From positions 1 to 59,062 of the forward strand of contig CANJNY010000016.1 in the NCBI GenBank assembly GCA_947475715.1: DNA of 59,062 bases, written 5' to 3'. The position numbers were made by a program, and so were the translations under genes. Below are positions 15,794 through 17,608 of this stretch, in pieces (positions within the stretch are counted from its first letter, which is position 1; each line of letters opens with the position of its first letter). The notes beneath the pieces were generated by a model that was not told where the DNA came from, ran no database searches, and saw only the letters and a list, made by a program, of their open reading frames with translations. This DNA comes from Prolixibacteraceae bacterium (GTDB lineage: Bacteria > Bacteroidota > Bacteroidia > Bacteroidales > Prolixibacteraceae).

Positions 15794-15827
15794 CAAAAAT
15801 AATCACTGTTAATTAATAATGTTCAAA
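15794..15827 (-). promoter_or_regulatory. Putative promoter of isocitrate dehydrogenase
   Basis: On the minus strand TATTTTTG (complement of 15794-15801) is preceded, 22 bases upstream, by TTTG (complement of 15824-15827). The upstream box lies inside the last codons of dnaX. The -7 box is 87 bases before the start codon. Confidence 0.5.
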
Positions 15828-16517
15828 ATCGAGCCCAAATTTCGACTTTAACCCGGCAAGTGAGGGAAATTTGGTCACTAAGAGGTTCCATCGCTCTTCA
15901 TCGGTGTACGGGACATTAGATTGATGGTTGATTTGTTCAGATACAGAAAAATTAATTTCTATCGCGTCATTCTCAAACTGGCGTCTTAAAAAACCAAGTA
16001 ATTTAGGTTTTAAATCAAGGGTTAAACGATTATATTGAAGTTCTGTATCGAGTTCATATTCCACAATCCATTTATCTGCAAGTAGAGGTTCACGCGCACT
16101 CAGGGCAGATTTCAATTGAGGTGCATCGGTAATTCCGGTTACAAAAGTTTTCCAGCTCTCGAGAAGTTCCCCCTGTGAAAACGGTTTTTCTGTAACCGTT
16201 TTCACATATTGTGATCCGGCAGCCTCACCAACAACATTTGAAACCTCTGCCAATGGTTCATCCCTTAGCGCGTCAAGTATCGATGGTGTTGAAAAGGATC
16301 CTCTGGCCATGATCTTTCGAACCGGTGGCCGCTCGATCACAGGATCTGCGGCAACAACTTTTTGGGGAGGCATGACTTGTGAAACCAAAGGTGATTCAAC
16401 CTGAGATACAACCCTGGTTTTTAGGAGATTTGCATTTTTATTGGGATCAATTTCGGCAAATATTGGCAATAGCGATAACGTTGCTAAGGCTTCGTCAATT
16501 GTTTTTTTTTTAACAAT
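15813..16517 (-). CDS. dnaX: DnaX tau-specific C-terminal part, reached by -1 frame change
   Basis: This frame encodes the C-terminal domain of DnaX in Bacteroidota: a Pro/Val-rich linker, then FSQGELLESWKTFV, YELDTELQYNRL, LLGFLRRQFENDAIEI and a terminal LAGLKSKFGLDFE. It is the -1 frame relative to the upstream part and stays open from 16517 to 15813. There is no ATG near its beginning (the first usable codon is a TTG at 16469). The two frames overlap only from 16517 to 16484, and that overlap holds a run of ten A. A slip would join LDELLKKK to TIDEALATL and give a protein of about 610 residues, the normal DnaX length. It is either programmed recoding or a homopolymer sequencing error. Confidence 0.85.
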   Translation of the reverse strand: MVKKKTIDEALATLSLLPIFAEIDPNKNANLLKTRVVSQVESPLVSQVMPPQKVVAADPVIERPPVRKIMARGSFSTPSILDALRDEPLAEVSNVVGEAAGSQYVKTVTEKPFSQGELLESWKTFVTGITDAPQLKSALSAREPLLADKWIVEYELDTELQYNRLTLDLKPKLLGFLRRQFENDAIEINFSVSEQINHQSNVPYTDEERWNLLVTKFPSLAGLKSKFGLDFEHY

Positions 16518-17608
16518 TCATCAAGTTGGTCAATCCGCACCAGCGCTAATTCAACCAAAAATCGTTGATTAGAGGAGGCTTTATATTGAATATCACATTC
16601 AGAAGCGAGCTGAAGGGCACCAATCAGAAAATTAATCGAGCAGGCAGCTGCCTGTTTCTTATATTTTTCGCGAATTTCACCACCCACCTCAAGAAGCTGA
16701 ACGGTAACAGCATCCTTACAGATTAGCAGGTCACGAAAATGTTGTCCAAGCCCCATAATGAAATGGTGAGCATTGAATCCATTATCAAGGATCTCACTAA
16801 AAATCATTAGAGTACCGGGAATATCTCCGGCCAAAAAGCAGTCGGTTAACTTAAAGTAATAGTCGTAGTCGAGTACATTTAAATTTGCAATGGTATCCTT
16901 ATAGGTTACGTTTGCTCCGCAGAAACTGACTACCTGATCGAAGATAGAAAGGGCATCACGCATAGCACCATCGGCTTTCTGAGCGATCACATTAAGGGCC
17001 TCAGGCTCTGCCTTAACGTTCTCTTTCTGAGCAACCTCAAGGAGGTATTTCTCGATATCAGGAATCGTGATTCTGTTAAAATCATAGATCTGACAGCGGG
17101 ATAAGATAGTTGGCAGAATCTTATGCTTTTCGGTTGTTGCAAGGATAAAAATTGCATGTGGCGGTGGTTCTTCCAACGTTTTCAGAAAGGCATTGAAAGC
17201 CGACTGTGACAACATGTGTACCTCATCGATGATATAGACGCTGTATTTCCCGATCTGAGGGGGAATACGAACCTTATCAACCAGCGAACGAATATCATCA
17301 ACCGAATTATTTGAAGCCGCATCAAGTTCATGGATATTATAGGAACGGTTTTCGGTGAACGAGATACACGATTCACAGGTGTTACAGGGCTCTGTATGGC
17401 TATCCAGATTCAGACAGTTGATTGTTTTGGCAAAAATACGGGCAGAGGTCGTTTTGCCGACACCCCTTGGACCGCAAAAAAGATAGGCGTGCGCAAGGTG
17501 ATTGCTCCTGATTGCATTTTTCAATGTCGAAGTGATCGACGGTTGTCCAACCACTGAAGTGAATGTATCGGGGCGATATTTTCGTGCTGAAACTAAATAG
17601 TTTTCCAT
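16484..17608 (-). CDS. dnaX: DNA polymerase III clamp-loader subunit gamma/tau, N-terminal part
   Basis: The AAA+ clamp-loader ATPase. From the ATG at 17608 (MENYLVSARKYRPDTF; an ATG at 17638 is less typical) come Walker A GPRGVGKTTSARIF, a four-Cys zinc module ending EPCNTCESC, Walker B VYIIDEVHML, and the sensor 1 region IFILATTEKHKILPTILSRCQ. Domain III follows, ending ALVRIDQLDELLKKK. The zero frame then reads QLTKP and stops at 16484, giving a 374-residue gamma-like protein. The tau-specific domain continues in the -1 frame. Unlike E. coli, where the slip makes the short form, here the zero frame gives the short form and the slip the long one. Confidence 0.96.
   Translation of the reverse strand: MENYLVSARKYRPDTFTSVVGQPSITSTLKNAIRSNHLAHAYLFCGPRGVGKTTSARIFAKTINCLNLDSHTEPCNTCESCISFTENRSYNIHELDAASNNSVDDIRSLVDKVRIPPQIGKYSVYIIDEVHMLSQSAFNAFLKTLEEPPPHAIFILATTEKHKILPTILSRCQIYDFNRITIPDIEKYLLEVAQKENVKAEPEALNVIAQKADGAMRDALSIFDQVVSFCGANVTYKDTIANLNVLDYDYYFKLTDCFLAGDIPGTLMIFSEILDNGFNAHHFIMGLGQHFRDLLICKDAVTVQLLEVGGEIREKYKKQAAACSINFLIGALQLASECDIQYKASSNQRFLVELALVRIDQLDELLKKKQLTKP
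16502..16511 (-). promoter_or_regulatory. A10 slippery run in dnaX
   Basis: On the coding strand the sequence TTGTT is followed by ten A and then CAATTG. It encodes Lys-Lys-Lys in the zero frame and lies within the 34-base overlap of the two dnaX frames. Thermus dnaX uses a comparable A9 run for transcriptional slippage, and E. coli dnaX uses an A-rich heptamer with a stem-loop. I see no strong stem-loop just downstream, which favours slippage of the polymerase. Confidence 0.7.

Follow-up and report, generated by a model that had tools for sequence, protein, structure and literature searches.

A dnaX gene in two overlapping frames

The stretch of DNA analysed, referred to here as the window, comprises 59,062 nucleotides of a Prolixibacteraceae bacterium (contig CANJNY010000016.1, assembly GCA_947475715.1) and carries on its minus strand a dnaX gene divided between two overlapping reading frames. 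The zero frame (16484–17608) begins at the ATG at 17606–17608 (MENYLVSARKYRP) and encodes the 374-residue gamma form with domains I–III (AAA+, lid and DNA_pol3_gamma3). This assignment follows from the open reading frame and its matches to NCBIfam NF011531 (713 bits) and to Pfam PF13177, PF22608 and PF12169. PF12169 spans residues 245–371 of the zero-frame protein (P0001), and the zero frame stops where domain III finishes. It is the short form lacking the C-terminal domain, as the original prediction, made from the letters of the window, had stated.

At the junction the zero frame reads TTA AAA AAA AAA CAA TTG ACG AAG CCT TAG. The run of ten A (A10; 16502–16511, minus strand), read as TTA AAA AAA AAA C, is the putative slippage site, and relatives carry A9–A11 at this position. 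Five sense codons separate the run from the TAG at 16484–16486, where gamma ends exactly as predicted. In the third (+1) frame a TGA (16495–16497) follows two codons past the run, a stop absent from the original prediction.

The −1 frame (15813–16517, minus strand) consists of 234 codons and a stop at 15813–15815, and represents the tau-specific C-terminal part according to its open reading frame, its match to the DnaX model and its dN/dS. A tandem TGA TGA (16518–16523) closes this frame just upstream of the run, and the A10 run is most likely the only way into it. The two frames share 34 bases (16484–16517). The predicted overlap had this length and rightly included the A10, but the 3' limit given with the prediction, 16519, lay two bases too far. 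If one extra A were read in the run, tau would have 598 residues (369 + 229), slightly fewer than the approximately 610 first estimated, and the run would lie about 62% of the way through the tau coding sequence (369/598 codons).

The −1 frame matches DnaX model NF011531 only at positions 427–613 of 614 (E 9.7e-14), in agreement with the prediction that it carries the C-terminal domain. A C-terminal domain with a predicted KH/DnaA-N-like fold occupies approximately residues 112–234 of this frame (15816–16184, minus strand). Pfam assigned no domain to the tau part of the window, a search of the tau-part profile against solved structures returned a single chance-level match (E 0.15), and VIA-align displayed no tau structure, which excludes nothing. 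Between genus members, the median dN/dS was 0.175 for the C-terminal part of tau (71 usable pairs) and 0.023 for the last 200 codons of gamma (just six usable pairs), both values being rough because the median dS of about 2 is near saturation. These substitution rates indicate that purifying selection acts on the C-terminal part of tau.

The gene is surrounded by ordinary chromosomal genes (glutathione peroxidase-like, isocitrate dehydrogenase, ferritin-like, SecA and Lgt). No second dnaX was found in this genome, the next matches scoring at most 37 bits. Eight of the A10 tracts of the genome were read (L001–L008), and the dnaX tract alone interrupts the interior of a long frame; the tract of L002 follows closely on a GTG that may start a reductase-like open reading frame, and the remaining tracts are found downstream of stops or within short frames. 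The dnaX run also sits inside a perfect inverted repeat, AATTGTT/AACAATT (16497–16518), which is probably a matter of chance because it is absent from relatives such as L010.

Conservation and register of the junction

Genus, family, order and class are used here as set by the search tool. The nearest named contigs belong to Bacteroidia metagenome genomes in which gamma is 88–94% identical; one is called Mariniphaga sp., and Mariniphaga is a genus of the Prolixibacteraceae, placed by NCBI in the order Marinilabiliales. Among the 18 genus genomes searched, that of the window included, dnaX was found in 16, and the two genomes lacking a match are 64% and 68% complete. The identical frame break occurs in 16/16 genus loci. 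The tract is A10 in 15 of them, and L013 has TTT followed by A9 with the register unchanged.

At the level of the family, 140 genomes were searched (those of the window and genus included) and 130 had dnaX; all 130 loci were read, 30 from the searches and 100 after fetching. A run of A9–A11 is present at the break in 129, the remaining locus (L231) ending at a contig end. These runs comprise 117 A10, nine A11 and three A9. The conservation proposed as a check on the prediction, namely of A9–A11 and of the frame break in close relatives, is thus borne out in the family and genus, respectively. In 121 family loci the tau part has the −1 register, in four the zero register (all A11) and in three the +1 register; it could not be assigned in one. 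In 125/129 loci the zero frame stops at the junction, and in 128/128 both off-frames stop within eight codons. One observation that had been named as speaking against slippage, a continuous dnaX without the run in relatives, does occur, as in Bacteroides and its kin, but at approximately 70% identity, whereas all 129 readable family loci keep A9–A11.

In the order, 80 of the 152 matched genomes were read (the matched genomes that follow one another from G140 to G224, one per family, without G179, whose match ends early). A run of A9–A13 occurs at the junction in 34/80 loci, the other 46 having shorter runs or none. Tau lies in the zero frame in 22 of the run loci, in the −1 frame in six and in the +1 frame in four; two have no long frame. 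The longest junction tract in the order sample, A13, belongs to L240, with tau in the zero frame. L258 and L276 have A10 near the end of gamma and no long frame directly after it in any register; in these two, the tau part may be disrupted or accessed in some other way. Leaving aside the nearest thirteen, 67 named loci were considered, 27 of them with a run of at least nine A; in the 26 for which a long frame could be told, tau lies in the zero, −1 and +1 frames in 20, 4 and 2 cases, and both off-frames stop within four codons in 21.

Similarly, 14/14 loci from other orders of the class (eight families) carry A9–A11, the zero frame encoding gamma in seven and tau in seven. Outside the class but within the phylum, 34 of 43 matched genomes were read, 15 chosen by score and 19 located among 20 regions fetched mainly for their short frames. 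The 15 best-scoring loci include one with a run of A9–A11. Among the 20 further regions, of which 12 had been selected for a short frame, 19 were located, and A9–A10 occurs in 11/11 short-frame and 4/8 long-frame loci of these. These A9–A10 loci may be the Chlorobi-type cases already in print.

Long runs are concentrated at the junction far beyond chance: across 94 order and class loci, 52 runs of at least nine A fall in the 16.9 kb around the junction, compared with none in the 34.1 kb upstream of it and five in the 45.1 kb downstream of it. On a FastTree phylogeny built from approximately 130 columns, the register changed at least seven times inside the family and at least 23 times across the 174 loci in which a run is present and the register could be assigned. 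Draft and metagenome assemblies are numerous among these genomes, so errors could underlie some of the tract differences of one base and, with them, some of the counted changes.

Candidate mechanisms of recoding

A dnaX gene split in this manner would require recoding to produce tau. Transcriptional slippage of the Thermus type is probably its main source, a reading held here with good though incomplete confidence. RNA polymerase would slip on the A10 run and yield transcripts with 9, 10, 11, 12 or more A. Gamma, ending five codons past the run, would come from those with 10 A (or 10 ± 3), and tau, with its C-terminal domain, directly from those with 11 A (or 8); those with 9 or 12 A would reach the third-frame TGA and give a gamma-like product. 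What the sequences show directly is the two frames, the stops and the tract with their conservation, the selection on the tau part, the single dnaX match of the genome and the register differences between relatives. We infer the slippage, its transcriptional nature and the product ratio, and take the functions of gamma and tau from what is established for DnaX proteins. The original prediction of programmed slippage producing gamma and tau is supported to this extent as the best explanation. The likeness to Thermus that it drew also holds on points beyond the reach of that prediction, as seen in the stops of both off-frames, the conservation in relatives and the lack of a conserved hairpin in the genus.

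If RNA polymerase freely adds or drops bases, both non-tau frames are used and both are therefore expected to stop soon. Off-frame stops were counted in 32 of the 34 order run loci, L258 and L276 being left out, and compared with random points upstream (or downstream) in the same genes. Both off-frames stop within four codons in 20/32 loci, against 8.3% in the upstream null (7.6% downstream), and within eight codons in 28/32, against 23% (19% downstream); the binomial p is approximately 2e-14 for each against the upstream null, with families treated as independent. The third frame would never be used by −1 ribosomal slippage. In loci outside the family with tau in the −1 frame, its stop falls within three codons in 9/13 against 25% expected (p 0.001), a modest excess of its own that might partly be a consequence of conserved tau residues.

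The most substantial rival is −1 programmed ribosomal frameshifting on A_AAA_AAA, in which ribosomes slip on an mRNA with exactly 10 A and tau is the frameshift product. The window has this heptamer in register and lacks A_AAA_AAG, its A10 being followed by C, and the −1 register kept in 121/128 family loci is what ribosomal frameshifting would predict too. A_AAA_AAG stands directly before the stop in 7/129 family loci, and RNA downstream of the junction is slightly more stable than its shuffles in the genus (mean z −0.85, with 2/16 loci below −2, against 0.06 in a control window); both observations count against transcriptional slippage. Upstream, where a Shine–Dalgarno-like stimulator might stand, reading by eye showed GAGGAG in some genus loci and GAAGAA or other sequences elsewhere. 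However, no conserved stem was found downstream in the genus (alifold −0.18 kcal/mol, 16 loci), as the original prediction of no obvious hairpin implied. In addition, ribosomal slippage leaves the +1 registers of relatives and the third-frame stops unexplained, and needs extra assumptions for the zero registers. It is accordingly considered unlikely as the source of tau in the window. Polymerase and ribosome might also both slip on the one run.

That ribosomal frameshifting can evolve at a dnaX junction is seen from the sister family, that of the Labilibacter genome (Marinilabiliaceae in NCBI), where 60 genomes were searched, 56 matched and 30 loci were read. Of these, 22 have A9–A10 (one is truncated by a contig end), and A_AAA_AAG immediately precedes the gamma stop in 12 of the 22. 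The remaining eight (L474, L475, L478, L479, L482, L485, L488 and L489), termed the A6G clade, have no long run and carry A_AAA_AAG directly before the gamma stop. A downstream stem-loop is apparent in this clade, with a mean z of −2.04 and 4/8 loci below −2, against −0.48 and 2/20 in the readable tract loci (L486 and L498, whose downstream regions were truncated, excluded). When the A6G rows were folded together, an 8-bp helix was paired in 95% of cells and showed changes on both sides in 4/8 pairs. The pairs were counted on clean rows, a four-base duplication lying between the slip site and the folding window, outside the stem. The covariation score was reached by 0/500 shuffles, and the number of pairs changed on both sides by 28/500. 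The A6G clade therefore appears to have lost the tract and replaced it with a ribosomal-type signal, the roles of the products being unchanged, and ribosomal frameshifting is likely to make tau there. Because this stem was found, the structure test can be taken as able to detect one.

The other rivals are far less probable. A homopolymer error in an assembly of a truly continuous gene might be suspected, as A10 runs are error-prone and relatives do deviate in length (nine A11 and three A9 of 129). The zero frame nevertheless ends at the junction in 16/16 genus and 125/129 family loci from many assemblies, and the junction stops are themselves conserved. The comparison refutes such an error for the lineage, leaving it a negligible probability; another run length would alter the register of the window's contig only. 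Conservation in the genus and family, taken together with dN/dS, makes both a sequencing error and a dying gene very unlikely, and a pseudogene reading was rejected on the same grounds. At the level of sequence, the split dnaX with its slippery A-tract is thereby confirmed as a real feature. In a further rival, gamma and the C-terminal domain are separate products, the second translated by re-initiation past the gamma stop. This would be compatible with the TTG at 16469, the first candidate start for the −1 frame, 14 bases downstream of that stop. Because of this TTG, the prediction that the −1 frame has no start of its own is only nearly right, but the family does not conserve such starts: ATG, GTG or TTG lies within 15 codons of the run in just 36/129 loci, and ATG or GTG in 9/129. 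The overlap, moreover, holds the A run wherever gamma ends at the junction in family loci, and re-initiation is accordingly regarded as very improbable. Equally improbable is phase variation, by which replication slippage would toggle cells between gamma-only and tau-in-frame states. Tract length does differ between species, but the register is kept in 121/128 family loci, and the tau form of a housekeeping gene such as dnaX would be lost in most cells.

A tRNA explanation was also considered. Atkins et al. (PMC5009743) describe tRNA-Lys(CUU) as a proposed reason for transcriptional slippage. The genome of the window has both tRNA-Lys(UUU) and tRNA-Lys(CUU), and the latter is present in 4/4 tested family genomes (the window's included) and in 0/3 A6G-type genomes by pattern and ARAGORN. 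A stricter pattern applied across the order gave tRNA-Lys(CUU) in 13/34 genomes with a run and 24/46 without (p 0.26, no association), and had no match in the family A10 genomes G068 and G136. The idea was dropped as support for transcriptional slippage on account of these results.

Known systems and wider distribution

Split dnaX was reported by Antonov et al. (2013; GeneTack dnaX cluster; PMC3711429) for 17 genes from 12 genera, of which nine have 10 A, and transcriptional realignment was the mechanism they proposed. Atkins et al. (2016; PMC5009743) repeat this account and contrast Thermus with E. coli. The window shares with these genes the N- and C-terminal parts in adjacent overlapping frames, a −1 transition at a conserved poly-A (7–10 A in the definition of the kind) and a tau that needs recoding. 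The kind of gene was thus already known from the two-ORF A10 dnaX of PMC3711429. Three Chlorobi-type species are named there, and the nine A10 genes may include Bacteroidia; that study may also partly cover the wide distribution described here. To it the present comparison adds the family-, order- and class-wide survey, the register flips and the off-frame stops. Searches of the open-licence literature for dnaX recoding in Bacteroidetes, Bacteroidales, Bacteroides, Prolixibacteraceae and Flavobacterium gave nothing on the lineage beyond PMC3711429, and a paper on a flavobacterial endosymbiont (PMC3971599) just lists dnaX as present or absent. As far as these searches go, the register flips and the contrast between tract and A6G are undescribed within the open-licence literature.

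In Thermus thermophilus, dnaX has A9 and undergoes transcriptional slippage (Larsen et al. 2000, as cited in PMC1088944 and PMC5009743), following the scheme given by Baranov et al. (2005; PMC1088944). Thermus dnaX and the dnaX of the window both carry a homopolymer of at least nine A where gamma and tau part, and in both genes stops close the two non-tau frames. They differ in that the zero frame encodes tau in Thermus and gamma in the window, and in that the Thermus run lies seven-eighths of the way through the coding sequence. In E. coli, dnaX uses A_AAA_AAG with an internal Shine–Dalgarno sequence and a stem-loop, and its recoding is ribosomal (PMC5009743, PMC3711429). The window shares with it the gene, the two products and an A-rich slip site, whereas it has no conserved stem, has A10 then C instead of A6G, and reverses the frame roles. 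The A6G clade of the sister family resembles the E. coli system in both site and stem, again with the frame roles reversed.

A broader model for much of the class Bacteroidia is offered tentatively, as one that falls somewhat short of an even chance. The dnaX junction may constitute a frame-indifferent cassette, made up of 9–13 A and stops in both non-tau frames, on which polymerase slippage would be so efficient that the genomic register hardly matters. Insertions or deletions of single A would then swap which product, tau or gamma, is templated, and such changes would repeatedly have been tolerated. Starting from such a cassette, a lineage of the sister family would have moved to A6G and a stem-loop, exchanging transcriptional for ribosomal recoding at the same site of the same gene.

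It has long been asked in the study of bacterial replication whether gamma is required and in what proportion to tau. The many dnaX genes whose register flips although the slippery junction persists offer a natural experiment on both points, and the same set of genes offers one on how transcriptional and ribosomal recoding replace each other. The added value of the present comparison lies in the wide distribution and register flipping of the slippery dnaX junction. In practical terms, automatic annotation may label split dnaX genes as pseudogenes or as two proteins.

A separate motif was noted among the 33 named loci that lack a run of seven A. In 24 of them, GGGC-N3-GCCC (mostly GGGCGTAGCCC) occurs within 70 bases past the end of gamma. 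It is absent from nine, namely L083, L091, L092, L098, L108, L118, L127 (cut), L129 (with a two-base loop) and L131. An alifold over 28 rows picked by eye gave just −2.5 kcal/mol. The motif is kept even though the residues encoded by its loop vary, for example in the Bacteroidaceae-type loci L072, L075, L079, L085–L087, L090, L093, L094, L097 and L099.
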